Assembly (NCBI GenBank): GCA_014879845.1
Contig: JACSRI010000161.1
Coordinates: 1 to 38,077, forward strand
DNA from: Opitutaceae bacterium
GTDB taxonomy: Bacteria > Verrucomicrobiota > Verrucomicrobiia > Opitutales > Opitutaceae
Length of the DNA: 38,077 bases
Reading direction: 5' to 3'
The position numbers and the translations under genes were made by a program. Under the pieces are notes generated by a model that ran no database searches, was not told where the DNA came from, and saw nothing but the letters and a program-made list of their open reading frames with translations. This document shows positions 24,073 through 38,077 of this stretch, piece after piece; the first letter of the stretch is position 1, and each line of letters begins with the position of its first letter.

Positions 24073-24175
24073 TTGGAACCACAGAGGACGCAGAGGGCAC
24101 AGACAGATAGAAGAGGCGGAAACCGGTGACTCGTCGGCTTGGACCTCGGTGCTCTCTGTGTCCTCTGTGGTTCAA
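24073..24175. repeat. Palindromic repeat element with AACCACAGAGG-type ends, copy 3
   Basis: The left end is TTGGAACCACAGAGGACG (one base more than the other copies) and the right end GTGTCCTCTGTGGTTCAA. It is the shortest copy, 103 bp. Its right end supplies the TGA stop of the DmsBC fusion gene, and it fills the gap before the nasA start. Confidence 0.85.
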
Positions 24176-25782
24176 TTCAGGACAGAGTTGGTTGAGACCC
24201 CCGGCATCTTTGGTGCATCGACCGCGCGGAAGTAGAGATAACGCTCCGCCAGTTCGCCTGCGAGTGCCAGGCCGAGTCCCAGGGTGGGCGCGAACACCAG
24301 ACCGACGACGGCCATGGCGCCGAGCGTGAGGCGAAGAGCGGTCGCGGACCGCAGCGGCCCGCGCTGCAGTCGGGCTGAAGGAGAACGTCCGATAAACGAA
24401 AGGGCCTCGCCCCCCAGCTTTGCGGCAAGGACCAGTGCGGCGGCGAGCGGGAGCGAGAACCCAAGGGCGAACACGGCGACCGTGCCGCCCATGCGCAGTG
24501 CCGTGAGCGGCGCGCGCCAGAACCGGCGGCGCGTATCGATATAGATCATCATCGAGCAGAAGACGGAGGCTGCGCCGATCGTGCCGGCGACCGGCGCGGC
24601 CAGTGTCAGGAAGCGATAATCCACGGCCAGAAGCGAAGCAGCCGCCGCCACGAGAAGGGCCGGCAGATACGCACCAAAGAGAACCGCCTCGCGCGAGAGC
24701 CACGAGCGACGCAGACCCAGGAACACGCGCCACGCGCGCAGCGGCTGGCCGAGGTGGGCGACGCTGGCTGCGATGCCAAACAGTCCGCAGATCGCAGCGT
24801 AGCGCAGTGCGTCTGGACGCGCCGCGACGAGATGTGAGAGCAGCGCCCCGATACTCACCTGCGTGAGCACCAGCATGACCACGAGCGGCCAGTGCGGGGG
24901 TTGCGGACGGAGCGTATCCGCATCCGCGGCACGGAGGTTGGCCGGAAGCGGACGCCTCGAGACGTAGCGTGTGGTCGGGCGGGTGATGGCTGGGTCGGGG
25001 AATACGGGCAGGAACGTGGGTTGAGGGCGGGGATGCCTCGCCAAGGCATCCGCGTTGGATGCATCGGTAGCGCGAGCGAACGGCGGCCTCGGCGAGGCCT
25101 CCCTGCCAAGAGAAGCCGTCACCTTCGTGATCTTGATCGCGTGCGTCGGGCACGCCTGCACGCAGGCCGGCGCCTCGCCCGCGGCGAGGCGGCCATGGCA
25201 CATGTCGCACTTGCGCACGATGCCGAGGCGCTTGGAGAACTTCGGCACGTCGTACGGGCACTTCAGGATACAGTAGCTGCACCCGATGCACTGGTCGTCG
25301 AGGTGGCGGACGATGCCGGTGACCGGGTCCTTCTCGTAGGCGAGGACCGGGCAGCCGTTCATGCAGCCGGGGTCCTCGCAATGATGGCAGGCGCTCGTGA
25401 TCGTCTGCTGAAACGGATACGCGGCATCGCCGCCAAGGACGAGGCCGACCTCGCGCCACGTCTCCTCCTCGTCGAGGCCGTTGAGCGAGTGGCAGCCGGC
25501 GACGCAGGCCTTGCAGCCGGAGCAGGCGTCGAGATCGACCTCGAAGGCGTATTGCTCGCCGGGGACCGGAGCAGAGAGAGGGATGAGGTCGGTATGAACT
25601 GCCGAATGCGGAATGCCGAAGTCCGAGCGGTCGAGCGCCCCGAATCGCGCGATTGGAGTCTGCAGGCGCTGCTGCTCGGCGAGGAGTTCGTCGAGGAATT
25701 CATGCAGCGACGGCGCGCGTGGCGGCGAGGCCATGCTCGCAACCCGCTCCGTGCTACTTGCTACCTCCACTTCAGTAGACAT
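24172..25782 (-). CDS. DmsB-DmsC fusion: four-cluster ferredoxin joined to quinol-binding membrane anchor
   Basis: A 536-residue protein. Residues ~85-220 hold four [4Fe-4S] motifs: [38 protein letters not shown] and CDMC ... ACVQACP. Residues ~290-520 form about eight membrane helices like DmsC, the quinol-oxidising anchor ([22 protein letters not shown] at the start). There is no Tat signal, so the clusters face the cytoplasm, matching NasA. I infer that it feeds quinol electrons to NasA. Its ATG overlaps the diflavin reductase stop by 11 bp. Two repeats are read in frame: a heptamer array at residues ~52-63 and a palindrome at ~223-253 between the two halves. Its TGA lies in a third repeat. 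Confidence 0.88.
25024..25112. repeat. Imperfect palindromic element in the DmsB-DmsC linker
   Basis: The two arms share a GCCTCGCC(A/G)AGGC core: 25024-25053 contains ATGCCTCGCCAAGGCAT and 25083-25112 contains CGGCCTCGGCGAGGCC. About 29 bp lie between. It is translated in frame as the low-complexity linker [20 protein letters not shown] and onward, between the Fe-S and membrane domains. Confidence 0.75.
25593..25627. repeat. 7-bp-period array (TGCCGAA-type x5) in the DmsBC fusion gene
   Basis: Units TATGAAC, TGCCGAA, TGCGGAA, TGCCGAA, GTCCGAG. They are read in frame as the stretch around [11 protein letters not shown], before the first cluster motif. Confidence 0.85.
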
Positions 25783-27472
25783 CGCGCTGGTAGCGTTTGG
25801 CGGCGCGCAGGGCGTTCACGTACTCGACGGCGCCCTCGGTGGTCTTCCCGCCGGCGGCCTCGACGACCTTGTGCAGCGCGGCATCGACATCCTTGGCCAT
25901 GCGCGAGGCGTCGCCGCAGACGTAGAAACTTCCGCCTTGGTCCAGCCATGCGAAGAGCTCCTTCGCGTGCTCGAGCATGCGATTCTGCACATAGATCTTC
26001 GCGGCCTGGTCGCGCGACCACGCGAGGTCGAGACGCGTGAGCGTGCCGTCGGCGCGCATCGCGTCGAGTTCCTCGCGGTAGAGAAAATCCGAGGCTTCCT
26101 TCTGGTCGCCGAAAAAGAGCCAGTTCTTCCCTCGCGCGCCGATGGCGCGGCGCTCCTCGAGGAAGGCGCGAAACGGTGCGATCCCGGTGCCCGGGCCCAC
26201 CATGATCATGGGTGCGTCGGGATTGGCCGGGGGCCGGAACGCCTTGTTCGCATGCACAAACACGCCGACCGTGCCGAGCGCGGCCCCACGTTCGGGGAGG
26301 AAGGTCGAGCACACGCCTTTGCGCGCGCGCCCGGCGAGCTCGTAGCGCACGGCGCCGACGGTCAGGTGGACCTGACCGGGATGGGCCTTGGGTGAGGACG
26401 AGATCGAGTAGAGGCGCGGCTGCAGGCGCTTGAGGCGCGCGAGCAGGTCGGCGGGCTTGAGCGCGAGGCCGCCGGTGGTCGCAAGCGCGTCGATGACATG
26501 GTGCGCACCGACGGGTGTGCCGATCGCTTGGAGCAACTCCGGCGTGGGTTTGCCGAGGTCGTAGAATTCCGTGAGCGCGCGACGCAGCGGGACGTCGCCG
26601 CCGCCGACAGGCGAGATGACCGCCTCCTCGCCATCACAACCGATGGCGGCGAGCACGTCATTGACCAGCCCGGGGCAGTTGTGCGGGTAGACACCCAGCG
26701 CGTCGCCCGCCTCGTAGGAGAGACCGGAACCCTCGAGCGAGAACTCGACGTGGTTCACCTCCTTGGCCGAGCCATCACCATTGAGCCGGCGCACGGTGAG
26801 GAGCGGAGCGGGGAAGGGATTGGCTCGGCTGAACGCCGAGCCATTGTCGATTTGGGATTCTCGATTGCCGATTGAGAGCGCGCCTGCCGAGGGCGTGGAG
26901 GCACCGAAGCCGCCGAGCGCCGCGACGAGCCACGTGGTGAACTTCTCCTCGTAGTCGATATCGCAGTCGGCGCGCGGGGCGACGCGGGTGGCGCCGCGTT
27001 TCTCGAGGAAGGCATCGAAGTCCTTCCCGCACTGGCAGAAGTGGACGTAGTTCGAGTCGCCCAGCGCGCAGACGCTGAAGCGCACATTCGTGAGTGATGA
27101 GGCGATGTCGGTGCGGAGCGCCGCGTGCAGTGCCTTCGCGTTGTCCGGAGGCTCGCCATCGCCGTAGGTGCTGGTGATCACGAGCACGTTCTTCTCGGTG
27201 GCGAGGCGCGGGGCGTCGACTGAGCCCATGTCGAGCAGCGTGGCGGCGAAGCCGCGTTTGCCGGCTTCCTTGGCCGCGCGTTTGGCCAGCGCCTCGGACG
27301 AGCCGGTCTGCGATCCCCAGAGGATCGTGAGCGGCATCAGCGCCGGCGCGGCGGGAACGGCTGCCGCGCCGGCTTGACTGCGTGAGAACACGCCGGCAAA
27401 GAAGCCGTTGAGCCAGGCGCGCTGCTCAGCGGTGAAGGGAGCGGAGTCTGGAATGAAGGGAGCGGAAGACAT
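25772..27472 (-). CDS. CysJ-like NADPH diflavin reductase (flavodoxin + FAD + NADPH domains)
   Basis: A 566-residue protein. The FMN-binding flavodoxin domain is at residues ~45-190 (ILWGSQTGSSEALAKR, TSTYGDGEPPDNA, VCALGDSNY). The FAD domain includes RLYSISSSP and GVCSTFLPER. The NADPH domain includes MVGPGTGIAPFRAFLEER, WLFFGDQ and FYVCGDASRMAKDV, ending in the conserved DVY. This is the sulfite reductase flavoprotein/bifunctional nitrate-sulfite reductase alpha family. Placed after the NirA-type gene it probably supplies NADPH electrons to it. A 7-bp-period array is read in frame at residues ~199-210, between the FMN and FAD domains. The ATG at 27472 is chosen because the frame before it overlaps nirA with shadow-like sequence. 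Confidence 0.92.
   Translation of the reverse strand: MSSAPFIPDSAPFTAEQRAWLNGFFAGVFSRSQAGAAAVPAAPALMPLTILWGSQTGSSEALAKRAAKEAGKRGFAATLLDMGSVDAPRLATEKNVLVITSTYGDGEPPDNAKALHAALRTDIASSLTNVRFSVCALGDSNYVHFCQCGKDFDAFLEKRGATRVAPRADCDIDYEEKFTTWLVAALGGFGASTPSAGALSIGNRESQIDNGSAFSRANPFPAPLLTVRRLNGDGSAKEVNHVEFSLEGSGLSYEAGDALGVYPHNCPGLVNDVLAAIGCDGEEAVISPVGGGDVPLRRALTEFYDLGKPTPELLQAIGTPVGAHHVIDALATTGGLALKPADLLARLKRLQPRLYSISSSPKAHPGQVHLTVGAVRYELAGRARKGVCSTFLPERGAALGTVGVFVHANKAFRPPANPDAPMIMVGPGTGIAPFRAFLEERRAIGARGKNWLFFGDQKEASDFLYREELDAMRADGTLTRLDLAWSRDQAAKIYVQNRMLEHAKELFAWLDQGGSFYVCGDASRMAKDVDAALHKVVEAAGGKTTEGAVEYVNALRAAKRYQRDVY
26841..26875. repeat. 7-bp-period array (CGATTNN-type x5) in the diflavin reductase gene
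   Basis: Units CCATTGT, CGATTTG, GGATTCT, CGATTGC, CGATTGA. They are read in frame as SIGNRESQIDN, in the linker between the flavodoxin and FAD domains. The array is AT-rich compared with the surrounding gene. Confidence 0.85.
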
Positions 27473-27516
27473 GGCGGGATTTGTGGGCAGGGCGAACCCT
27501 CCGGGTGAGCCGCGGC

Positions 27517-29331
27517 TCAGGCGCTGAGCTTCTCCTGCAGCTGGCCGACCGTGTGGCGGCGCGACCACTGCACGAAGGTCTCGCCGGTCGTGCGCGAGGC
27601 GAGATAGGCGGCGAGGAGCTTGTCGACCGTGGCGTTGACTTCGGAGGCGCGCACACCCTTGAGCACTTCGGGGGCGATGCCCTGCTCGTGGTCCATGCCT
27701 CCGCCGACCACCATGTGGTAACCCTCGGAGCCGTCGGCGAGCTTGGCGCCGATGAAGCCGATGTCGCCGCAGTAGTGCTGGGCGCAGGAGTGCGCGCAGC
27801 CGGTGAAGTGGATGTTCACCGGCGACTGCAGCTCGGGGAACTTCTGGTGCAGGTGCTTGAAGAGCGCGGTGGCGTGGCCCTTGGTGTCGCTGGCGGCGTA
27901 ATTGCAGCCCTTGTTGCCGGTGCAGGCGATGATCCCGCCGGCAGCGGACGAGGCTTCGGTGAAAAAACCCAGCCGGATCGCCGCGCGGCGCACGGTCTCG
28001 ACGAAGGCGTCGGCGATGTGCGGCACGATCACGTTTTGCCACACCGTGAGCCGCAGTTCCCCCGTGCCGTAGGTTTCGGCGAGATGGGCGAGTCCGTGCA
28101 TCTGCTTGGATGACATGCGGCCGACGGGGATGCCGATGCCCAGCGAGTTCTTCCCGGACTGGGATTGGCGACGCACACCCAGCCAGGCATGTTTCTCGAC
28201 GGGCCGGCGTGGCTCGCAGCCGTCGATCGGCAGGCGACCGAGCGGGAAGGCGAGGCGCTTCGCCGTCTCGTCGATGAACTTCGCGTCGCCCCACCCCTCG
28301 AGCAGGTACTTCAGGCGCGCCTTCTTGCGGTTGGTGCGGTCGCCGTGCTCCGCGAAGACGCGTATCATGGCAGCGGCGACGGCGACGGCCTCGGAGGGCC
28401 GGATGAGCAGGCCGGTGTCGCGGGCAAAATCCTTGTGGCCGGTGATACCGCCCAGCATCACCCGGAAGTACACGCCCGGGGCGGGCGGATTTGAGATCTC
28501 AGATTTGAGATTTGAGATCGAGCGGTCGGTCACACGCACGGCGAAGAACCCGATGTCGTTGGTGTCGGCGGCGGCGGAGATCGATCCGCCACTGTCGAAG
28601 GCGACGTTGAACTTGCGCGGCAGGCCGTAGAGGTCGCGGTGATTGAGGATGTAGTGGTGGAGCGCCTTCGCGTAAGGGCGCACGTCGATCAACTCATCTG
28701 GCGCGAATCCACTATCCGGCGACGCCGTGATATTGCGGATGTTGTCGGCGCCGGCGCCGCGCGAGGTCAGCCCGAGTTCCTGCACGCGCGTGAGGACCTT
28801 CACCAGGCTGCGCGGGGGGAACTCGCGGATCTGGAGGTTGCCGCGCGTGGTGACGTGGACATAGCCACCGCCGAGCTCGGCCGCGAGATTGGCCAGCCCG
28901 TGGAACTGGTGCGCGCTGATCTCGCAGGCCGGCACGCGCAGCCGGATCATGAAGCTGTCCTGGGCCGGAGCGACATAGAACAGGCCGTGCGTCTTGAAAC
29001 GGTAGATGTTTTCCGCGTCGGGAGTCTTGTCTGCCTCGGCGTGGGCGAGCAGGCGCTCCCAGGCGTCGAGCGGATTCTCGTCGTGTTTCCAGCGCTCCTC
29101 CTTGCAGAGCTCGGAGAGCGGGGTGCCGAAGACCGTGTCCTCAGCGGGCGGATTCGCGAGGTTGCCGGACACGGCGACGGCCGGGTCGACGGTCAAGGTG
29201 CCGGCCGCGGTGTGACCGGTGAAGGGCCACTGTCCGGAGGCCGCGACGCCAGCCATGAAACCCTGAAGGTACTCCTTCTGGGACGGAGAAAACGCGGTGG
29301 AACCGGGAATGGTGTCGAGGACGTCGGGCAC
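27517..29331 (-). CDS. nirA: NirA-type sirohaem [4Fe-4S] nitrite (or sulfite) reductase
   Basis: A 604-residue protein with two sirohaem-reductase half domains. The cluster/sirohaem cysteines are Cys470 and Cys476 (CTGNKGC) and Cys512 and Cys516 (CAHSC), the usual C-x5-C ... C-x3-C. It reduces nitrite to ammonium in the cytoplasm by six electrons; sulfite activity cannot be excluded by sequence. The diflavin reductase follows 44 bp downstream. The start is a GTG at 29331, since an in-frame stop lies close upstream. The N-terminus FSPSQKEYLQGFMAGV resembles that of the diflavin partner. A heptamer array is read in frame at residues ~270-281 (SISNLKSEISN). It is the first gene of the nir-nas operon, behind a sigma-54-like promoter. 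Confidence 0.9.
   Translation of the reverse strand: MPDVLDTIPGSTAFSPSQKEYLQGFMAGVAASGQWPFTGHTAAGTLTVDPAVAVSGNLANPPAEDTVFGTPLSELCKEERWKHDENPLDAWERLLAHAEADKTPDAENIYRFKTHGLFYVAPAQDSFMIRLRVPACEISAHQFHGLANLAAELGGGYVHVTTRGNLQIREFPPRSLVKVLTRVQELGLTSRGAGADNIRNITASPDSGFAPDELIDVRPYAKALHHYILNHRDLYGLPRKFNVAFDSGGSISAAADTNDIGFFAVRVTDRSISNLKSEISNPPAPGVYFRVMLGGITGHKDFARDTGLLIRPSEAVAVAAAMIRVFAEHGDRTNRKKARLKYLLEGWGDAKFIDETAKRLAFPLGRLPIDGCEPRRPVEKHAWLGVRRQSQSGKNSLGIGIPVGRMSSKQMHGLAHLAETYGTGELRLTVWQNVIVPHIADAFVETVRRAAIRLGFFTEASSAAGGIIACTGNKGCNYAASDTKGHATALFKHLHQKFPELQSPVNIHFTGCAHSCAQHYCGDIGFIGAKLADGSEGYHMVVGGGMDHEQGIAPEVLKGVRASEVNATVDKLLAAYLASRTTGETFVQWSRRHTVGQLQEKLSA
28488..28522. repeat. 7-bp-period array (GATTTGA-type x5) in nirA
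   Basis: Units GATTTGA, GATCTCA, GATTTGA, GATTTGA, GATCGAG. They are read in frame in nirA as a loop between RVTDR and PPAPGVYFRVMLGG. Confidence 0.9.
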
Positions 29332-29342
29332 GCCCCGAATTT

Positions 29343-29358
29343 AGCAACGGCGATGCCA
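29343..29358 (-). promoter_or_regulatory. Sigma-54-like -24/-12 element of the nirA operon
   Basis: On the minus strand TGGCATCGCCGTTGCT, matching TGGCACG-N4-TTGCW at the TGGCA and TTGCT blocks with exact spacing. The nearly identical element before the nitrate transporter (13 of 16 bases) strengthens it. The predicted transcript start would be at about 29332, next to the GTG, which is an unusually short leader. Confidence 0.55.
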
Positions 29359-29404
29359 GAGGTGGGGTTTGCGCAATCGACACCGTGAATTGTTTCGAGC
29401 GTTG

Positions 29405-29423
29405 CGATGAACAGAGTTCATCG
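29405..29423. promoter_or_regulatory. 8-3-8 palindrome upstream of nirA, likely activator site
   Basis: CGATGAAC, AGA, GTTCATCG: perfect arms. Its edge is 46 bp from the -24/-12 element, so its centre is about 80 bp before the predicted transcript start, where enhancer-binding activators of sigma-54 usually bind. The same palindrome with one mismatch is at 32494-32512. Confidence 0.65.
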
Positions 29424-29428
29424 TTCGC

Positions 29429-31099
29429 TCACCTGCGGGTCAGGGCGATCAACAGGGCGATGTTCCCGAGCAGCAGCACCAGGCACAGCGCTTTGTAGAA
29501 CAGGAGGGGATTGCGCTCCAGCAGGGGTGCGTCTTTGCGGTAGAAAGGTGCCACCTGGGCCGGATGCGCGAGGTCGAAGGCCATTTCCGAGTAGGCCTGG
29601 TAACGGCGGGCCGGGTCGGGCGAGAGGGCGCGCAGGACGATGGCCTCGAGCCACGGAGGCACCGCGGGATTGAGTGTGGTCGGCCGGCGCGGCGGGTGTT
29701 CGAAGCGCGGCGTCTGGAATCGTTCGACCTCTCCGTACGGATACAGGCGCGTCAGGGTCTCGTAGAGCGTCACGCCGATGGCGTAGAGTTCGGTGCGCTC
29801 GCCGGCGGCGGCGCCGCGGAACCGCTCCGGCGCGAGGTAGCTGGGCGTGCCCGCGCGCGTGGTGACGGAAAACACCTCGGCCGCGCTGCCGAGGTCCAGC
29901 AGCTTGAAGCGCGTGCCCTGGCCGCCACGCGCGGCCGCGCCGTCGCCTGCGCGCAGGACGAGGATGTTCTCGGGCTTGATGTCGCCGTGCACGATGTCGT
30001 GCTCCAGCAGCGCCTGCCCGCAGCGCAGCAGGAAGGCGCCGAGCGCGACCGCCTCCTCGACGGCGAGCGGCTTGTCGCGCAGGACCTCGCGCAATGTGGG
30101 CGCGTCGACGAACTCCATCGTGTAGTAGCGCAGCGAGCCCGCGGTCGGGATGGCGCCGCGCACGAAATCGTCGGACTCGAGCCGCGCGGCCTGCCACGCC
30201 TCGTGCGCGAAGGCATCACGCCGGGCCCCGTCGCCGGCGGCGTCGAGCGACGGGAATTTCGCCACCACGCGCGAGCCGTCGGGTCGGCGCGCCTCCCAGA
30301 TGCGCGCGCCGTCCTGCAGCGGCCGCACGAGGGTGAGATCGTCGACCCGGTCGCCGGGGCGCAGTGCGGGCGCCACCTCGACGAGGCGCTCGAACCCGCC
30401 ACCGTGCCGGCCGCTCTCGATCACCTCGAGGACGACGGCGCTTGCGTCGTCGGCGCGCTCCGGGTGCTCGCGGACTGCATCCTGGGCGGCGGCCACGAGC
30501 GTGCGCGCGGTGGCGCGGCGGGCAAGGAGGCCAGCGAGTATCCGATCGTCGAGGACGCGACTCACGCCGTCGCTGCAGAGCAGCACGATGTCGCCGGCGT
30601 CGACCGATGTCTCGAAGAGGTGCGGCTCCAGGTCGACCGAGGCGCCGAGCGCGCGGGTGAGCACGTGCTCCATGCCCGGTTCGGCCACGATGTGATCCTC
30701 GGACAGGCGCACGAGCGAGTCGCGGCGCCGCAGAAACACGGGCGAGTCGCCGACGTTCAATCCGTAGAGCATGCCGCCTTCGATCGCCACCACGCTCAGC
30801 GTGCACATCAGCTCCGGCGTGCCGTGCTGGACTTGCGACTCCATGTAGAGCACGCGGTTGATCCGCGCGGCGAACTCGATGAGGGCGCGGCGTGCGCTCC
30901 AGCCCTGCGGGCGGCCGACGAGGTAGTCGGTGATCATCTCGACCGCGCGGCGCGCCGCCTCGCCGCCGAGTCGCGCGCTGCCCATGCCGTCGGCCAGTGC
31001 AGCGACGAGGCAGCCCTCGCGTTGCTGGACGCGCCAGGCATCCTCGCCCGGCGAGGACGGAGTGCGCGGGGCTCCGTGGCTCGAGGTCTGGATCTTCAT
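29429..31099 (-). CDS. PP2C phosphatase-Ser/Thr kinase fusion with C-terminal membrane anchor
   Basis: A 556-residue protein. Residues ~10-230 are a PP2C domain: GEDAW, ADGMGS (Asp38), VGDSPVF, CSDGVS (Asp177) and ADDAS, the metal-binding aspartates. Residues ~250-520 are a Ser/Thr kinase domain: VVAKF (Lys281), HGDIKPEN (Asp373, with Gly in place of the HRD Arg), LDLGS (Asp402) and LAPERF. A membrane helix (LCLVLLLGNIALLIAL) ends the protein at residues ~538-553, followed by TRR. So one protein carries opposing activities and both domains face the cytoplasm. It lies between the nitrate transporter and the nirA operon. A similar bifunctional gene is known beside nasA/nirB in Pseudomonas. The target is unknown; transporter or reductase control is inference. 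Start at ATG 31099; GTG 31123 is possible. Confidence 0.92.
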   Translation of the reverse strand: MKIQTSSHGAPRTPSSPGEDAWRVQQREGCLVAALADGMGSARLGGEAARRAVEMITDYLVGRPQGWSARRALIEFAARINRVLYMESQVQHGTPELMCTLSVVAIEGGMLYGLNVGDSPVFLRRRDSLVRLSEDHIVAEPGMEHVLTRALGASVDLEPHLFETSVDAGDIVLLCSDGVSRVLDDRILAGLLARRATARTLVAAAQDAVREHPERADDASAVVLEVIESGRHGGGFERLVEVAPALRPGDRVDDLTLVRPLQDGARIWEARRPDGSRVVAKFPSLDAAGDGARRDAFAHEAWQAARLESDDFVRGAIPTAGSLRYYTMEFVDAPTLREVLRDKPLAVEEAVALGAFLLRCGQALLEHDIVHGDIKPENILVLRAGDGAAARGGQGTRFKLLDLGSAAEVFSVTTRAGTPSYLAPERFRGAAAGERTELYAIGVTLYETLTRLYPYGEVERFQTPRFEHPPRRPTTLNPAVPPWLEAIVLRALSPDPARRYQAYSEMAFDLAHPAQVAPFYRKDAPLLERNPLLFYKALCLVLLLGNIALLIALTRR

Positions 31100-31205
31100 G
31101 GCAGCGCGGGGTGGCACGGGCACGACCGACCACCGATGGCCTGGCCGACCGCGGGTGTCGAGGCGGCTCTCCGCCGCAAGTCGCCCTCCGGTGACGCCGG
31201 TGTGC

Positions 31206-32411
31206 TCAAATCCGCGCGGCGGCTACGGCGCCCCAGGTCGTGCGCCAGCGCGTTTTCACGAGCTTGAGGCCGACGAGCGCGACTGCGCACAGTCCCGCGA
31301 AGAAGAGGATGCCCGTGAGGTAGCTGCCGGTGTGCTCCTTGGACGAGCCGAAGAGCATGCCGAGCAGAAAACCGCCGACTCCACCGCCGCATCCCACCAG
31401 CCCGGTCATCACGCTGATGTCCTTCGCGAAGCGCTGAGGCAGGAGCTGGAAGACCGAGCCGTTGCACATGCCGAACGCCCCGGAGGCCACGAAGAATGCC
31501 GCGCCGCAGACCCAGAGGTGGTGCGAGAGCGCGGCCACGACCATCGCCATGCCGGCCACCGAGTAGAACACCCCGAGCGAGCGGATGCCTCCGAGCCGGT
31601 CGGCGAGCGCGCCACCGGCGGGACGCCCGACCGCGCCAACCAGCGTGCAGAACGCCGCGAACTCGCCCGCCTGCACCGGAGCGAGCCCGAACTCGTCGCG
31701 GAAATAGATGGCAAACGCCGTGGCCAGCCCGACGAACCCGCCGAAGCTGATCGTGTAGAAAAAGCAGAACCAGTGTGCGTCGCGCTCCCTGAGCAGGTGA
31801 AGATAGTCGCCGAGTTTCTTCTTCTTGAACTGGCCGGGTGGCTCCTTCGAGAAGGCCACGTAGAGCACGAACGCGAGCGCGAGCGGGATGAGTGCCGCGC
31901 CGAACACCGACTGCCAGCCCCAGGCATGCGCGATGCGCGGCGCCGCGAGGTGGTCGATGACCACACCGATGTTGCCGGCTCCGGCCAGGCCCAGGACGAC
32001 GCCCTGCATGTGCGGCGGATACCACCGCCCCGATTGCGGCAGCGCCACGGCGAAACTCGCCCCGGCCACGCCGAGCACCAGGCCGAGCGCCAGCGCCTGG
32101 CCGAGCGTGGAAATCCCGGCCCGCCACGCGATGAACAGTCCGGCCATGACGACGAGCTGCGCGAGGATGCCGGTCTTCTTTGTGCCGATGCGGTCGACGA
32201 GCAGGCTGAGCACGATGCGCAGGAATGCACCGCTGAGGATCGGCGTGGAGACCATGAGGAACTTCTCCTGCGCGCTCAACCCGAGCGTCGGAGCGATCAT
32301 CGCGCCGAGCGCTCCGAGGAGCGTCCACACCATGAAGCTGACATCGAAGTAGAGAAACGACGTGAGCAGCGTGGGCCAGTGACCGGACTTCTTGAGTTGC
32401 GCGATGTTCAT
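31206..32411 (-). CDS. Nitrate/nitrite MFS transporter, NarK/NasA family
   Basis: A 401-residue protein with 12 likely membrane helices. GHWPTLLTSFLYFDVSFMVW is the typical N-terminus of NarK/NasA transporters. The two nitrate-signature-like motifs are GVAGASFAVALPQSGRWYPPHMQGVVLGLAGAGNIG and SGAFGMCNGSVFQLLPQRF ... GLVGCGGGVGGFLLG. It imports nitrate (or exchanges nitrate and nitrite) at the inner membrane. The frame is open to 32510, but a palindrome and the -24/-12 element overlap those codons, so the ATG at 32411 is chosen. The kinase/phosphatase gene follows 106 bp downstream, probably in the same transcript. Confidence 0.93.
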   Translation of the reverse strand: MNIAQLKKSGHWPTLLTSFLYFDVSFMVWTLLGALGAMIAPTLGLSAQEKFLMVSTPILSGAFLRIVLSLLVDRIGTKKTGILAQLVVMAGLFIAWRAGISTLGQALALGLVLGVAGASFAVALPQSGRWYPPHMQGVVLGLAGAGNIGVVIDHLAAPRIAHAWGWQSVFGAALIPLALAFVLYVAFSKEPPGQFKKKKLGDYLHLLRERDAHWFCFFYTISFGGFVGLATAFAIYFRDEFGLAPVQAGEFAAFCTLVGAVGRPAGGALADRLGGIRSLGVFYSVAGMAMVVAALSHHLWVCGAAFFVASGAFGMCNGSVFQLLPQRFAKDISVMTGLVGCGGGVGGFLLGMLFGSSKEHTGSYLTGILFFAGLCAVALVGLKLVKTRWRTTWGAVAAARI

Positions 32412-32430
32412 GGACGGGCGCGCATCCATG

Positions 32431-32446
32431 AGCAACGGGCATTCCA
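32431..32446 (-). promoter_or_regulatory. Sigma-54-like -24/-12 element of the nitrate transporter gene
   Basis: On the minus strand TGGAATGCCCGTTGCT, with the TGG and TTGCT blocks at the sigma-54 spacing, and 13 of 16 bases shared with the nirA element. The predicted transcript start is at about 32420, 9 nt before the chosen ATG. Confidence 0.5.
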
Positions 32447-32493
32447 TGGCATCAGGTTGCACCCAATTCCGCCGCGAATTAAATCGGTCGATA

Positions 32494-32512
32494 CGATGAA
32501 CGAAGTTCATGG
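32494..32512. promoter_or_regulatory. 8-3-8 palindrome upstream of the nitrate transporter gene
   Basis: CGATGAAC, GAA, GTTCATGG, one mismatch from the perfect copy before nirA. It lies 47 bp from the -24/-12 element, against 46 bp at nirA. It overlaps codons at the start of the longest reading frame, which argues for the shorter protein start. Confidence 0.6.
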
Positions 32513-32718: not shown

Positions 32719-34248
32719 TCAGAAGTTCGTGGTGAGCTGCAGGTACATGTAGCTTGCGTCGCTCGAGCCGACGGAGCGGAGGCTCTGCTTGATGTACTCG
32801 CCGCGGACGAAGTAGCTCAGGCCGAGTTCGACCTGTGAGTGCGTGGCGAAGGCCCAGCCTGTGACGAGGTCGAACTCATAGCCGAGCTGGCTCTCGTAGC
32901 CCGGGTTGATGCGGTAGCCGTTGCCGCTGCCGACGGGGTTGGCCGCGGTGGCGACATTGCGAGGCACGCCGGCGACGTTGTACCAGAAGTCAGTCGTGCG
33001 CGCGAGCTGCTGCACGTGCGCCTCGAGGGCGACGCTGACGACCGGCTTGGGCTTGAACGAATAGACCAGTCGCAGGTCGTGCATGTTCTGCAGGCTGGAG
33101 AGGTCCATGTAGCCGTAGAAGAGATGGTTCGTCGGAAACAGGTTCTGGAAGGTCCCGCTCTCGTCGTCAGTCGCGCTCTTGTCGCCTGAGCCGTGGCTGT
33201 AGAGCAGGCTGAGGCGCGGCTGCCAGGCGTGTTCGGTCCAGGTGTATCCGCCCTGCACGACGACGGCGTAGGCCATGTGGTCGAGCATCGGCGCGACCGC
33301 GGCGACAGCCGGCGGCGTGGCGGGAAACACCGCTGTGCGTTCGCCGAACTGATACATCAGCTCGAAACCGTAGTCCCAGGGCCCGTAGGCGCCGGGCTTG
33401 GACTTCCAGCGCAGGCCGAGCGTGTAGAGGTCCTGTGGCGCGGGGAAGCGGAACGGTGCGGCCACATCGGACCAATCGTCCCAGACAATTGCGCGGTCGA
33501 CGTTGCGTGCGAAGGCGTAGGCCTCGACCGTGTTGTTCGTGCTCACGCGCGGGAAGTTGAAGTACGCGCCGGAGAAGAGGTCGTCGAAGTTTGCGGTGTT
33601 GAACTCATCATGCGCGTTGTAGACCACGCCTCCGGTGAACACATCGACACCGAAGATCGGGTTCTGCCAGCGGAGCTTGGCCGCGTCGAAAGTGCGGGCG
33701 TTGTTGTTCCAGCGAAAGTGTCCGACGAGGCGCTGGTCGCCGTAGACGAGTTCCTGGCGGCCGAGCTTCAGCGAGACGGGAAACTCCTTGTGATTGCCGA
33801 GGTAGAGGTAGGCCTGGTGCAGGTCGATGGGCCCGTCGCGTTCGGCGAGGCCCTCGCCGGGGGCGGCGGCGTTGTAGCGCTCGTCCCCATACGAGTAGCT
33901 CGTGCGTGCTTCGACGAGGAAGGCCCAGCGCTTGTCCGTGTAGCCGACGCGCGGCATGAGGCGCAGGAGCGAGTAGGTGTTGTCGTTGTCGTCCTGCGGG
34001 CGGTCGGAGAAGTCCCAGTTCGAACCCGCGTCGGTGAAGCCGGCGTTGTGCTTCGACTCGATGCGGAAGCGGCCGCCGACGGCGATGTCCCAGGCGCTCA
34101 TGTAGGGATTGTCGGCGCGGAGCTTTTCGTTGGCGAAGCCCGGGAACGGCCGCGGCGGGGGCGGCGGCGTGTACTGGGCGAGGGCGCTGGTGACGCCGGC
34201 GATGGACAAGCCAAAGGCCAGCGCCGAGACGAGGTGTCTGGCGTTCAT
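32719..34248 (-). CDS. Outer-membrane beta-barrel porin, alginate-export-like family
   Basis: A 509-residue protein. A signal peptide (HLVSALAFGLSIAGVTSALAQ) precedes a Pro-rich stretch (YTPPPPPRPFPGF) and then barrel sequence. LKLGRQELVYGDQRLVGHFRWNNNARTFDAAKLRW matches the alginate-export barrel group and resembles the block in the other porin of this window (KVGRQRLVLDNQRFVGDVAWRQNMQTFDAV). The C-terminus YMYLQLTTNF ends in Phe, as expected for barrel insertion. It follows the ATPase genes by 33 bp, so it is probably the last gene of the nrt operon. Passage of nitrate through the outer membrane is a plausible but unproved role. Confidence 0.88.
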   Translation of the reverse strand: MNARHLVSALAFGLSIAGVTSALAQYTPPPPPRPFPGFANEKLRADNPYMSAWDIAVGGRFRIESKHNAGFTDAGSNWDFSDRPQDDNDNTYSLLRLMPRVGYTDKRWAFLVEARTSYSYGDERYNAAAPGEGLAERDGPIDLHQAYLYLGNHKEFPVSLKLGRQELVYGDQRLVGHFRWNNNARTFDAAKLRWQNPIFGVDVFTGGVVYNAHDEFNTANFDDLFSGAYFNFPRVSTNNTVEAYAFARNVDRAIVWDDWSDVAAPFRFPAPQDLYTLGLRWKSKPGAYGPWDYGFELMYQFGERTAVFPATPPAVAAVAPMLDHMAYAVVVQGGYTWTEHAWQPRLSLLYSHGSGDKSATDDESGTFQNLFPTNHLFYGYMDLSSLQNMHDLRLVYSFKPKPVVSVALEAHVQQLARTTDFWYNVAGVPRNVATAANPVGSGNGYRINPGYESQLGYEFDLVTGWAFATHSQVELGLSYFVRGEYIKQSLRSVGSSDASYMYLQLTTNF

Positions 34249-34281
34249 AGGTGGTGGGTGCGGTCTGTCAGGTTGGTCTGG

Positions 34282-35115
34282 TTACGCGGTGGCGGTGGCG
34301 AGGGCAGGCTGGTGCGCGCGGGCGGCCTGCGATGGCCGCTCGTGCGCCCGGTGTTCAAGAAAGTCGATGAGCTGTTCGCGGAGGCGGTAGTACTCGGGAT
34401 CCTCCATGAGCGCCTTGCGGTCGCGCGGGCGCTCGAAGGGAATGTGGAGGATCGCGCCGACCTCGGCGGCGGGGCCGTCGGTCATGCAGACCACGCGGTC
34501 GGAGAGGAAGATCGCCTCATCGACGTCGTGCGTGACCATGAGCGCGGTGATCTGATTGCGCCGCCATAGCTCGAGGAGCACGCCGTGCAGCTCCACGCGT
34601 GTGAGCGAGTCGAGCATGCCGAAGGGCTCGTCGAGCAGCAACATCTTGGGCGAGAGCGCGAACGCGCGCGCGATGCCGACGCGCTGGCGCATGCCCTGCG
34701 AGAGCTCGTGCGGGCGCTTGTGCATGGAGTCGCCCAGGCCGACGACCGTGAGGTAATACTCGACGATGGCAGCGCGCTCGCTCTTGTCGGCGGTCCAGAA
34801 GGCCTGGTCCACGCCGAGCATCACGTTTTCGAAAGCGGTGAGCCACGGCAGCAGGCAGGGCGACTGAAACACCACCCCGCGGTCGGGGCCCGGGCCGTCG
34901 AGTTCCTTGCCCGCGAGCACGATGCCGCCGTCGGTGATGTCATTGAGCCCGGCCACCATCGAGAGCACGGTGGACTTGCCGCAGCCGGAGTGCCCGATGA
35001 GCGAGACGAACTCACCCTTGGCGATCTTCAGGTCGAAGTCCTTCACGATCACCGCGGGACCCTTCGGCGTGGTGTAGGTCTTGGTGACCCTGGAGATTTC
35101 GAGGTAGGAACTCAT
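34282..35115 (-). CDS. nrtD: Nitrate ABC transporter ATP-binding protein, NrtD-like
   Basis: A 277-residue ATPase. Walker A GHSGCGKS (41-48), Q-loop [11 protein letters not shown], signature LSQGMRQR (138-145), Walker B LLLDEP (159-164) and an H-loop VTHDVDEA are all intact. The nitrate/sulfonate/taurine ATPase family fits well. With the companion ATPase (18-bp gap upstream) it powers import of nitrate through the permease. Length is normal for NrtD. Confidence 0.92.
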
Positions 35116-35133
35116 GGGTTTGGATCCTCGCGA

Positions 35134-36057
35134 TCAGGAGCGGACGACGATCTCCTCGCGCTTGAGTTCGCCGCGGCGCACGGGGCGGCGGCGCGGGGCG
35201 AAAAGGCCGGGCCCGCCGCTGCGTGTCAGATCCTCGGGTACGAGGTCAGGGAGGAGAAGATTCTTCGAAAGCGTGGTTTTGCGCATTTCCTGGAAGCTGA
35301 GCAAAAAATCGAGCACGCGCGTGCGGATGGCCTTGAAGGCCGGGTCGTGGTTGATGGCGGCACGGTCGCGCGGGCGCGGCAACGGGATCGGGATGGACGG
35401 GCCGAGCGTGGCGCGCGGACCGGGGGTGAGCGGGATGATGCGGTCGGCGAGGTAGATGCCCTCGTCGGGATCGTTGGTGATGAGCACGACCGTCTTCTTC
35501 TCGCTCTCCCAGATGCGGGCGATCTCGTCCTGGAGCGTCGCGCGGGTGAGCGCGTCGAGCGCGCCGAGCGGCTCATCGAGGAGCAGGATCTTCGGGTTCA
35601 TCGCCAGCGTCCGAGCCACGGATACACGCTGGCGCATGCCGCCGGAGAGCTCGCGCGGCACCTTGTTGCGCGCGGGCGTGAGGTTGACCATCGCGATGTG
35701 CCGCTCGATGTGCTCGCGGCGCTGCTCCGCGGTCCAGCTGGGAAACACCTGGTCGACGGCAAGGGCGATGTTCTCGTAGACTGTGAGCCAGGGCAGCAGC
35801 GAGTAGTTCTGGAACACGATGCCCCGGTCGGGCCCGGGCTCGGTGATGGGCTGGCCGGCGAGCGTGATCGTGCCGGAGTCAGGCTGGAGCAGGCCGGCGA
35901 GCAGGCTCATCAGCGTGGTCTTGCCCGTGCCCGAGTAGCCGACGATGGCGACAAACTCGCCCTCCTCGATCGAGAGGTTGATGTTGCCGAGGATCTCGGA
36001 CCGCGCGTGGGCGGGGCCGAAACCTCTGTTGACGGAAGTGACTTCGAGAAGACTCAT
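35134..36057 (-). CDS. nrtC: Nitrate ABC transporter ATP-binding protein, NrtC-like without solute-binding domain
   Basis: A 307-residue ATPase. Walker A GYSGTGKT (40-47), signature LSGGMRQR (137-144) and Walker B LLLDEP (158-163) are intact, but the H-loop reads LITNDPDEG, with Asn where His is usual. Cyanobacterial NrtC is about 660 residues because of a regulatory NrtA-like C-terminal domain; that domain is absent here. The C-terminal ~60 residues are an extension with no recognised motif. Its ATG overlaps the stop of the small NrtS-like gene by 4 bp. The Asn may be a family trait and may make the ATPase pair asymmetric. Confidence 0.9.
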   Translation of the reverse strand: MSLLEVTSVNRGFGPAHARSEILGNINLSIEEGEFVAIVGYSGTGKTTLMSLLAGLLQPDSGTITLAGQPITEPGPDRGIVFQNYSLLPWLTVYENIALAVDQVFPSWTAEQRREHIERHIAMVNLTPARNKVPRELSGGMRQRVSVARTLAMNPKILLLDEPLGALDALTRATLQDEIARIWESEKKTVVLITNDPDEGIYLADRIIPLTPGPRATLGPSIPIPLPRPRDRAAINHDPAFKAIRTRVLDFLLSFQEMRKTTLSKNLLLPDLVPEDLTRSGGPGLFAPRRRPVRRGELKREEIVVRS

Positions 36058-36311
36058 GAGGCGTCGTGCTTGGACTTGCTGCGCACCGTCGCCGTGGCGG
36101 CGACGAGGGCGATGCCGATGCTGATGGCGGGGGCGGCGATCGTCTTGATCACCACGGCGGATGTGACATGGCCGGTGAGCCAGTGGTCACCCTGGTTGAC
36201 GGCGATCTGCAGGGCGCCGACGGGCAGACCGATGCGGAGCGATCGAAGCCAGACCGAGCGATCGCGGAGGGTGGCGCGCCACATGGAGGGAAATGTCGTG
36301 GCGACGATCAC
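36054..36311 (-). CDS. Small membrane protein, NrtS-like nitrate/nitrite transporter
   Basis: An 85-residue protein with two membrane helices: LRIGLPVGALQIAVNQGDHWL and AVVIKTIAAPAISIGIALVAATATV. The centre, VNQGD followed by a small-residue block and a second helix, resembles the NrtS family of small nitrate/nitrite transporters. It fits exactly between nrtB and the nrtC-like gene with 4-bp overlaps on both sides (GTGA at 36311, ATGA at 36057), which supports the GTG start. The ATG at 36284 is an alternative (76 residues). A much longer frame runs upstream through nrtB but is a shadow. Identity is from pattern memory only. Confidence 0.7.
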   Translation of the reverse strand: MIVATTFPSMWRATLRDRSVWLRSLRIGLPVGALQIAVNQGDHWLTGHVTSAVVIKTIAAPAISIGIALVAATATVRSKSKHDAS

Positions 36312-37099
36312 GCGGTCTTGAAGCGGGCCTCGACGAGGCTCATGAGCCGGTCGAGGACGAAGCCGACGAGGCCGATGGTCAGGATGCAGAGGATGATCTG
36401 CTCGTAGACGAGCGAGTTGTACTGCTGCCAGAGGAAGCCGCCGACGCCGGGGCGTCCGGTCAGCATCTCGGCGGCCACGATCACCAGCCAGGCGATGCCG
36501 AGGCTGAGGCGGAAGCCGGTGAACATGTAGGGCAGCGTCGCGGGCACGAGGACCTTGAAGAGCGTCTTCGTGCGCGAGAGCTTCAGCACCTTGGCGACGT
36601 TCAGGTAATCCTGCGGGATCGAGCGCACGCCGACCGCGGTGTTGAGCACTGTCGGCCACATCGAGCAGATCGCGATGGTGAACAGTGCCGCCATTTCGGA
36701 TACGCCTTTGCCCGTCTTCATGAACAGGATCATGCCGAGCGGCAGCCAGGCGAGTGGTGAGACCGGGCGCAGCACCTGGATCATCGGGTCGCAGATCTTC
36801 GTCGCGACCTTGGAGAGCCCGAGGATGAAGCCGAGCGGCGTGCCGACGATCAGCGCGATGGCGTAGCCCTTGGCCACGAGCACGAGCGAGAGCCAGGTGA
36901 AGCGCAGGATGCCCTGGTCCATCTCGCCGCGGTAGGCGAAGGGTTCCACCACGACAGGCTTGCTGGATACCCATGTCGCGGTCGGATCGGGCAGGTCAGG
37001 CGAGACGGTGGCGCTGAGACCGAACCAGAGGGCGACGAAGGCGACCACGCCGATGAGCGGCAGGAGGAGCGAGTCGAGTTTGAGTTTCGAGAAGATCAT
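36308..37099 (-). CDS. nrtB: Nitrate ABC transporter permease, NrtB-like
   Basis: A 263-residue protein with six or seven membrane helices. The cytoplasmic coupling loop LGIAWLVIVAAEMLTGRPGVGGFLWQ and PVSPLAWLPLGMILFMKTGK are typical of NrtB/SsuC/TauC permeases. It forms the channel of the nitrate importer. AAAGG lies 7 nt upstream of the ATG, overlapping the nrtA 3' end, and the gap from nrtA is 3 bp. Its stop overlaps the NrtS-like gene by 4 bp. Confidence 0.93.
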   Translation of the reverse strand: MIFSKLKLDSLLLPLIGVVAFVALWFGLSATVSPDLPDPTATWVSSKPVVVEPFAYRGEMDQGILRFTWLSLVLVAKGYAIALIVGTPLGFILGLSKVATKICDPMIQVLRPVSPLAWLPLGMILFMKTGKGVSEMAALFTIAICSMWPTVLNTAVGVRSIPQDYLNVAKVLKLSRTKTLFKVLVPATLPYMFTGFRLSLGIAWLVIVAAEMLTGRPGVGGFLWQQYNSLVYEQIILCILTIGLVGFVLDRLMSLVEARFKTA

Positions 37100-37102
37100 G
37101 GG

Positions 37103-38077
37103 TCAGCCTTTCATGCTGTGGACCTCGAACGAGGTCGCGTAGGCCTCGGGACTGGCCGGGTCGAAGACCTTGCCGTCGAAGAGCGCGAACGAGGAGTCGT
37201 CCTGGACGCGGTCGGTCACGCCGATCTCCTTCATGGCCTCGAGGTAGAGGTCGCCGCGCATCACCTGCTTGGCGACGCCCTCGTAGTCGGGCGCGCCCGA
37301 CACCATGCCCCAGCGGCGGAACTGCGAGAGCCACCAGGTCGCGAACTTGGGCTGCGGGTAGTTGCAGTTGCGCCTCGAGAAGTGCATGGGGAACCCGTCG
37401 GTGATCGTGCGTCCGTCGCCGTAATCGAGCTGGCCGAGGAGGCGGCCGAGGATGATCTCCTTCGGGCAGTTGATGTAGTTGGGTTTCGATACGATCTCGC
37501 ACTGCTCCGGTCGGTTGGCCATGTCGTCGAGCCAGACGCTGGCCTCGTGCAGCGCCTTGAGCACGGCCTTGACTGTCTTCGGGTTCTTCTCGGCGAACTC
37601 GGCGGTGAAGGCACAGACCTTCTCGGGATGATCTTTCCACAGGTCCTGCGTGGTGACCGAGGTGAAGCCGATGCCGTCGGCGATGGCGCGCGCGTTCCAC
37701 GGTTCGCCGACGCAGAAGCCGTCCATCTTGCCGACCTTCATGTTGGCCACCATCTGCGCGGGCGGGATGGTGATAAGGGAGACGTCCTTGTCCGGGTTGA
37801 TGCCGCCGGCCGCGAGGTAGTAGCGCATCCACATCGCATGCGTGCCGGGCGGGAAGGTCATGGCGAAGGTGAGCGGCTCGCCGAGCTTCTTGGCCTGCTC
37901 GGCGAAGGGTTTGATCGCCTTGGGGTCGGCGCCGACCTTGCCCTTCCATTCGGCCTTGAGCGAGATGGCCTGGCCGTTGCGGTTGAGCAGCCACGGGATG
38001 ACCATGGGTTTCTTGGGCGAGCCGAGCAGGCCCATGGTCGAGGCGAGCGGCATGCCGATGAGCATGTGCGTGGCCTG
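37103..38077 (-). CDS. nrtA: Nitrate ABC transporter substrate-binding protein NrtA, N-terminus beyond window
   Basis: The frame is open through the right edge (QATHMLIGMP at the edge), so the first ~100 residues, including the signal sequence, are missing. The ATG at 38065 is an internal Met. GLLGSPKKPMVIPWLLNRNGQAISL, FPPGTHAMWMRYYLAAGGINPDKDV, GKMDGFCVGEPWNARAI and DGFPMHFSRRNCNYPQPKFATWWLSQFRRWG are strongly conserved in NrtA/CmpA. It binds nitrate outside the membrane and delivers it to the permease. It is the first visible gene of the nrt operon, followed by nrtB after 3 bp. Confidence 0.95.
   Translation of the reverse strand, partial: QATHMLIGMPLASTMGLLGSPKKPMVIPWLLNRNGQAISLKAEWKGKVGADPKAIKPFAEQAKKLGEPLTFAMTFPPGTHAMWMRYYLAAGGINPDKDVSLITIPPAQMVANMKVGKMDGFCVGEPWNARAIADGIGFTSVTTQDLWKDHPEKVCAFTAEFAEKNPKTVKAVLKALHEASVWLDDMANRPEQCEIVSKPNYINCPKEIILGRLLGQLDYGDGRTITDGFPMHFSRRNCNYPQPKFATWWLSQFRRWGMVSGAPDYEGVAKQVMRGDLYLEAMKEIGVTDRVQDDSSFALFDGKVFDPASPEAYATSFEVHSMKG

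Follow-up and report, generated by a model that had tools for sequence, protein, structure and literature searches.

A candidate nitrate-assimilation regulon of the Opitutaceae that combines sigma-54-type promoters with a LysR-type regulator

The stretch of DNA analysed here (the window) comprises 38,077 nucleotides of contig JACSRI010000161.1 of an Opitutaceae bacterium (assembly GCA_014879845.1) and carries a nitrate-assimilation cluster, in which the gene for a ferredoxin-type nitrite reductase, nirA, and that for a narK/nasA-type nitrate transporter (narK below) are each preceded by a palindrome that is followed, at a nearly fixed distance, by a sigma-54-type −24/−12 element. The same layout recurs in related nitrate clusters, where ATGA-N7-TCAT stands mostly 48 or 49 bp, or 38 or 39 bp, before GG-N10-GC at the nirA, narK and nitrate ABC transport (nrt) promoters. 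With moderate confidence, we propose as the best model a small Opitutaceae nitrate-assimilation regulon, the sigma-54 promoters of which would be driven by a general nitrogen activator and gated by a LysR-type regulator (LTTR). From its sequence, the palindrome is probably the recognition site of the LTTR and not that of the usual sigma-54 activator. The comparison covers a 5.44 Mb draft genome (5,437,556 bases in 277 contigs, with the window as contig C272) and 141 genomes of relatives, a sample that was chosen by the search tool and the members of which are related among themselves.

The two promoters of the window

The original prediction had described a palindrome and a sigma-54-like 16-mer before nirA and before the transporter gene; both lie exactly where it had placed them (Table 1), and the agreement of the 16-mers at 13 of 16 positions and the 1 bp difference in spacing were re-found. 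Exact GATGAACNNNGTTCAT occurs in the whole genome at these two sites only, with no match of the reversed control. When up to three mismatches were allowed, CGATGAACNNNGTTCATSG gave five matches in the window versus 0.80 expected from shuffles, a number that none of 100 shuffles reached, and four of the five are the two sites, each read on both strands. On the minus strand, which is the coding strand of nirA and narK, both 16-mers show the −24 GG and the −12 GC with ten bases between them, near the consensus TGGCAC-N5-TTGC. The palindrome had been expected to be centred about 80 bp before the transcript start, and for nirA its centre falls at about −82, given the predicted start. The element in the middle was considered as a possible IHF site, given the resemblance of ATxAA-N4-TTG to one; it varies between promoters.

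Sigma-54-type elements and start codons

The genome holds one copy of rpoN (PF04552, 204.6 bits, E = 2.4e-60, contig C125), and with the conservation of the element this leaves the sigma-54 half of the earlier reading well supported: the nirA, narK and nrt elements are, as judged from sequence, well-supported sigma-54-type promoters. Among eight genomes compared at nirA, six have 10–12 nt between the −12 GCT and the start codon, the exceptions being L125 with 15 nt and L128 with 18 nt; at narK the distance is 19 nt in all four compared (the window, L116, L118 and L119). That transcripts would begin unusually close to the start codons had been noted as an oddity, and this holds, as the predicted start (12 nt past the −12 C) falls approximately at the GTG of nirA and about 9 nt before the ATG of narK. 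The misplaced start codons that had been offered in explanation are unlikely, because short distances from element to start codon are usual in the relatives; with the −12 GCT so close to its start codon, the predicted nirA transcript of the window would therefore be leaderless or nearly so. Leaders of about 0–9 nt at nirA and narK, as predicted from these starts, would leave no room for a NasT/NasS leader hairpin, no search for a hairpin having been made.

Conservation in relatives

A strict pattern (GAAC..GTTC and TTGC) matched in 25 of the 141 genomes, and in the genome of the window at the two sites; it was set aside as too strict for relatives, and its reversed control also matched. Two two-part patterns were then compared. 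The stricter gave 16 places in 12 genomes, with no control matches among the matches listed, and retrieved only nirA and a site on contig C219 from the genome of the window; the looser gave 68 places in 48 genomes, with few control matches, and retrieved both window sites and that on C219. The search of the genome and its relatives extended the motif, which the original prediction had regarded as that of a likely nitrate or nitrogen regulon, to the nrt/LTTR region and to a BBP2-type porin gene. The latter is preceded by the C219 site (L101:7429-8559), at a gap between palindrome and element of 39 bp. The fourth site of the genome, with a gap of 50 bp, escaped both patterns and lies on contig C107, outside the window, in the divergent promoter region beside the genome's own LTTR gene. 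At the porin gene, the start codon stands 89 nt past the −24/−12 element, unlike at nirA and narK.

A match to nirA is present in 38 of the 141 genomes, and 35 upstream regions were scored, L077, L080 and L082 having been dropped for want of an anchored hit. Nine of these regions show the palindrome with at most one mismatch, followed by GG-N10-GC at a gap of 48 or 49, and GGCA-N7-KGC is found between −61 and −19 in 15. In many of the remaining regions nirA is closely preceded by another gene and may lack its own promoter. Altogether, 48 pairs of perfect palindrome and element were collected over the nitrate-cluster loci and divided by a text match for the LTTR, a division that may have placed some LTTR-side sites in the other group; at 23 of the non-LTTR sites the gap is 49 (11 sites), 48 (6), 39 (2), 50 (2), 38 (1) or 47 (1), and four further pairs have gaps of 33, 61, 64 and 75 (one each). 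Judged from these counts, the distance from palindrome to element is mostly kept or shifted by one helical turn, and the claim of a two-part motif of near-fixed spacing that is conserved in relatives stands.

The LysR-type regulator as the probable reader of the palindrome

An LTTR gene was detected in 19 of the 40 regions fetched around nirA (18 of the 20 upstream ones, plus L154) and is divergent from an NrtA-like gene wherever genes were listed; the domain scan of its product returned LysR domains only. Among the 141 genomes the LTTR is matched in 51, namely in 37 of the 38 with nirA versus 14 of the 103 without (p = 3e-21), and the single nirA-positive genome that lacks a match (G103) is 75% complete. 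With the looser pattern, pairs at gap 48 or 49 occur in 11 of the 51 LTTR-positive genomes versus none of the 90 LTTR-negative ones. The LTTR-positive group holds 14 such places versus about two by chance, and about one would be expected by chance in the LTTR-negative group, both as estimated from other gaps; some of the pairs in the 11 genomes look like chance matches in coding DNA.

LysR-type targets carry as their signature a T-N11-A box in an interrupted dyad, and they have a second, weaker site two to three helical turns closer to the promoter. The palindrome ATGA-N7-TCAT fits the T-N11-A box. In 27 of 41 LTTR loci with a perfect palindrome, it stands 2 bp before the LTTR start codon as extrapolated from alignment, and the copy in the genome of the window was read to do the same. 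It is the T-N11-A form, the adjoining LTTR start codon and the co-occurrence with the LTTR, taken together, on which the proposed assignment of the palindrome to the LTTR rests. Among the offsets tried at the 23 non-LTTR sites, offset 17, at which a second T-N11-A is centred 31 bp further on, scores highest, with 10 sites (the next best has 8); with the LTTR-side sites included, about half show this weaker element. These counts, from which two LTTR-side pairs of gap 39 and the four pairs of gaps 33, 61, 64 and 75 were left out, are no more than suggestive of a second LysR-type site between palindrome and promoter element.

The divergent region between the LTTR gene and the nrt genes was examined in 56 distinct LTTR loci, obtained from 86 loci (L115–L154 and L195–L240) by retaining the 59 with E ≤ 1e-50 and enough flank and removing three duplicates; L241–L245, which are at most 37% identical or very short, are outside this set. 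The palindrome is perfect in 41 of the 56. Among these 41, a forward GG-N10-GC lies at a gap of 48–50 in 34, versus a total of 13 in the scan of 37 other gaps, and a reverse GG-N10-GC lies exactly at offset 22 in 33, the two being present together in 32; of the 23 non-LTTR sites, one has the reverse element. When 29 loci of gap 49 were aligned, having been selected on the palindrome arms and on the forward GG and GC, with the remaining columns unselected, all but one of the columns conserved at 95% or more belonged to the palindrome arms, the reverse AGCA..CCA and the forward GGCA..GCT. Both fetched loci of Roseibacillus (class Verrucomicrobiia), the LTTR of which is 48% identical, keep the palindrome and both elements. 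In three loci (L122, L129 and L130, from G006, G020 and G123) both GG-N10-GC elements are kept and the palindrome has one or two mismatches.

The fixed place of the reverse GG-N10-GC suggests that the LTTR gene has a sigma-54 promoter of its own. Transcription from it would begin about 29 nt before the LTTR start codon, and the leader would contain the palindrome. From its position, this element overlaps offsets 16–30, and thereby the second T-N11-A site. The two −24 elements of the region are about 14 bp apart, from which we infer that two polymerases could hardly bind together. Beside the LTTR gene, L118 (7396-8208), L126 (15015-16100) and L132 (8629-9660) encode a second, divergent NrtA-like (NMT1-type) protein, possibly a NasS-like sensor.

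Several results weigh against this reading. The LTTR occurs without a nirA match in 14 genomes; of eight such loci fetched, three (L202–L204) are without the layout, and in the other five (L197–L201) the LTTR gene is accompanied by the palindrome and by both elements. Fifteen of the 56 LTTR loci are without a perfect palindrome, and of the 15 nirA regions with GGCA-N7-KGC, seven (L022, L028, L038, L039, L049, L050 and L078) are without a palindrome within one mismatch. Some matches of both two-part patterns lie outside nitrate clusters, probably by chance. In the LTTR-side set, offset 17 of the second T-N11-A (11 of 19) falls behind offsets 13 and 16 (12 of 19 each) and is equalled by offset 8 (11 of 19). 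The presence of the NtrC-like activator described below in 36 of the 38 nirA-positive genomes says little, because that protein is core (109 of 141).

Candidate activators and alternative explanations

The genome of the window gives 15 matches to PF00158, which correspond to about a dozen full-size sigma-54 activators. A tblastn search with 12 of them against the 40 fetched nirA regions found one clear linked activator gene, that of the core NtrC-like protein in L138, at a distance of about 17 kb past nirA; a match in L124 was weak and partial. Three were compared by distribution. The NtrC-like protein (L103, contig C157), which scores 506 bits against an NCBIfam ntrC cut-off of 559, is enriched in genomes with nirA (p = 0.003). 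The NifA-like protein (L107) was rejected as the regulator on account of its presence in 20 of the 141 genomes and in 9 of the 38 with nirA, and the PAS-domain activator (L108) on account of its match, at the cut-off used, in its own genome only. The NtrC-like protein is the best candidate of the three by elimination, which is not proof. As separate observations, the NifA-like protein (contig C149), which is also found in 19 relatives, scores 474.9, under the NCBIfam nifA cut-off of 528.85, and a GAF-domain sigma-54 activator (L105, contig C19) is encoded directly after a PTS enzyme I-like gene, as seen by eye.

In the proposed model, an LTTR tetramer would occupy a single face of the helix at about −82 and −51, next to the sigma-54 polymerase, and would permit or block firing of the promoter according to nitrate or nitrite. 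For the ATP-driven opening, the model calls on a sigma-54 activator that signals limiting nitrogen; the core NtrC-like response regulator is the most likely one, and it would work without an enhancer nearby. The LTTR would also repress its own back-to-back sigma-54 promoter, which is proposed because the second LTTR site would cover the −12 region of that promoter. A more far-reaching version, which we regard as possible but doubtful, has the LTTR act positively on a fixed helical face as an obligatory partner of the sigma-54 polymerase across the nitrate regulon, either as an adaptor for an enhancer-less NtrC-like activator or, at the extreme, as the activator itself, with the closely spaced back-to-back promoters of the LTTR gene and nrt forming a switch through mutually exclusive polymerases.

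The original prediction had taken the palindrome for the enhancer of a sigma-54 activator. On this view, the activator would bind through a Fis-type DNA-binding domain and loop to the polymerase, and the LTTR would be a bystander or have other sites. Enhancers of such activators do lie where the palindrome does, their usual place being about 80–150 bp before a sigma-54 start; the genome encodes about a dozen activators, and the NtrC-like one is present in 36 of the 38 genomes with nirA. This explanation nevertheless appears unlikely and the earlier claim is not upheld, as linkage in the 40 nirA regions amounts to the L138 gene and the partial match in L124, two of the three activators compared do not fit by distribution, and a different binding protein is indicated by the spacing, which hardly varies, by the T-N11-A form and by the place of the palindrome next to the LTTR start codon. 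The near-fixed spacing, varying by one helical turn, is as expected for direct contact, and would suit an LTTR that is the direct and sole activator of the sigma-54-type promoters, without an AAA+ activator. The co-occurrence of the LTTR with the nitrate genes agrees with this, no enhancer besides the palindrome was recognized, and in several genomes the nirA palindrome follows closely behind the preceding gene. Such an arrangement is nonetheless very improbable, since the sigma-54 polymerase depends on an enhancer-binding protein that hydrolyses ATP (PMC4987338) and the LTTR shows LysR domains only, and since activation by NtrC without an upstream activating sequence is documented (PMC5263251).

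The sigma-54 assignment itself has an alternative: GG-N10-GC could be an additional binding site, or else a sigma-70 promoter whose −10 is extended (TGCTAAA..). The −12 block of the nrt promoters is mostly GGCT instead of TTGC, and GCA-N7-TGC is itself a dyad, both of which would suit such a reading. It is, however, improbable, as the element stands at promoter distance from the nirA, narK and nrt start codons, the −24 block is of the TGGCA type in most promoters, rpoN is present, and no −35/−10 pair was apparent by eye, no promoter scan having been run.

Genes of the cluster

On the minus strand, the order is nitrate ABC transport genes, porin gene, palindrome and −24/−12 element, transporter gene, PP2C/kinase gene, palindrome and −24/−12 element, nirA and three further genes (Table 1). 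The nrt genes were named from sequence, homology between genomes and position. Four of the relatives fetched (L115, L116, L118 and L119) have a match to the PP2C/kinase fusion at the corresponding place. The outer-membrane porin of the alginate-export type (32719-34248), which is situated amid the nitrate transport genes, was matched in three fetched relatives (L118, L119 and L120).

Table 1. Promoter features and genes of the nitrate cluster in the window.
Feature	Position	Strand	Remarks
nirA palindrome	29405..29423	-	CGATGAACTCTGTTCATCG; core 15-mer ATGAACTCTGTTCAT at 29407-29421; proposed LysR-type site (T-N11-A); recurs at nirA in relatives
nirA second T-N11-A element	29376..29390	-	ATTCACGGTGTCGAT; centre 31 bp from palindrome centre; T17 and A29 both present; proposed second LysR-type site
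nirA sigma-54-type −24/−12 element	29343..29358	-	TGGCATCGCCGTTGCT; 48 bp past the 15-mer
Transporter palindrome	32494..32512	-	CCATGAACTTCGTTCATCG; core 15-mer ATGAACTTCGTTCAT at 32496-32510
Transporter degenerate second element	32465..32479	-	ATTCGCGGCGGAATT; T17 present, A29 absent
Transporter sigma-54-type −24/−12 element	32431..32446	-	TGGAATGCCCGTTGCT; 49 bp past the 15-mer
nirA, ferredoxin-type nitrite reductase	27517..29331	-	GTG start 11 nt past the GCT of the −12 element
narK/nasA-type nitrate transporter	31206..32411	-	Named by sequence, homology between genomes and position, not by Pfam scan; ATG 19 nt past the −12 GCT
PP2C phosphatase/Ser-Thr kinase fusion	29429..31123	-	Between the transporter gene and nirA
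Flavodoxin/NAD(P)H reductase-like protein, after nirA	25772-27517	-	
4Fe-4S/DmsC-like protein, after nirA	24172-25782	-	
NasA-like reductase, after nirA	21798-24059	-	Name from position and conservation, not from a family scan
Alginate-export-type porin and nitrate ABC transport genes, near window end	32719..38065	-	

Relation to known systems and significance

NtcB of cyanobacteria, a LysR-type protein, regulates nitrate/nitrite assimilation and works with a global nitrogen regulator, NtcA, which is of the CRP type; sigma-54 is not known to be involved. The targets on which NAC acts use sigma-70, as does the operon atzDEF itself, to which AtzR is the LysR regulator. NAC of Klebsiella is a nitrogen-related LysR-type regulator that reportedly, in work of Feng et al. 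from 1995, represses its own sigma-54 promoter. The LTTR was not identified as NAC, that of the relative L118 scoring 86.6 bits with NCBIfam NF008410 versus a cut-off of 309. The sigma-54 promoters of nitrate genes in Pseudomonadota use NtrC sites. For this phylum, one source (PMC12316311) describes predictions of sigma-54 promoters upstream of genes for nitrate ABC transport and for nitrite reductase, and mentions leader antitermination by NasT, unlike which the leaders predicted here for nirA and narK would be of about 0 to 9 nt. In Methylacidiphilum strain V4, a LysR-type 'cbbR' gene has been suggested to be coupled to nitrate genes (PMC3404531).

The nearest precedent is AtzR/atzDEF of Pseudomonas sp. 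ADP (PMC5263251, where the name is spelt AtrZ). AtzR is encoded divergently from its target operon atzDEF; a single site serves both for activation of the operon and for repression of the sigma-54 promoter of atzR, and at this atzR promoter NtrC is the activator that works without an upstream activating sequence. The LTTR side described here, as predicted from sequence, is closely alike. Unlike the AtzR system, the present case concerns a nitrate regulon of Verrucomicrobiota in which the divergent operon, and nirA and narK as well, carry a sigma-54-type promoter whose distance from the proposed LTTR site is nearly fixed. In the literature searched, the coverage of which was partial, we found no LysR/sigma-54 nitrate regulon described for Verrucomicrobiota, nor any nitrate regulon whose structural genes likewise combine an LTTR site with a sigma-54 promoter at fixed spacing. 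An LTTR that autorepresses a sigma-54 promoter is thus known already; what was not found reported is the same pairing of LTTR site and sigma-54 promoter at the nitrate structural genes.

In the usual description of a sigma-54 promoter, an AAA+ activator acts from an enhancer that is remote and tolerant of changes in position. In the present case, the upstream site appears to be held by a regulator family that lacks the AAA+ domain, with the spacing kept nearly to the base pair or one helical turn off. If true, this would raise the question of how a LysR-type protein and the sigma-54 polymerase cooperate, and the back-to-back sigma-54 promoters would form a simple switch that could be rebuilt in a reporter. 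It would also provide a defined nitrate regulon, together with its regulator, for a poorly studied phylum.

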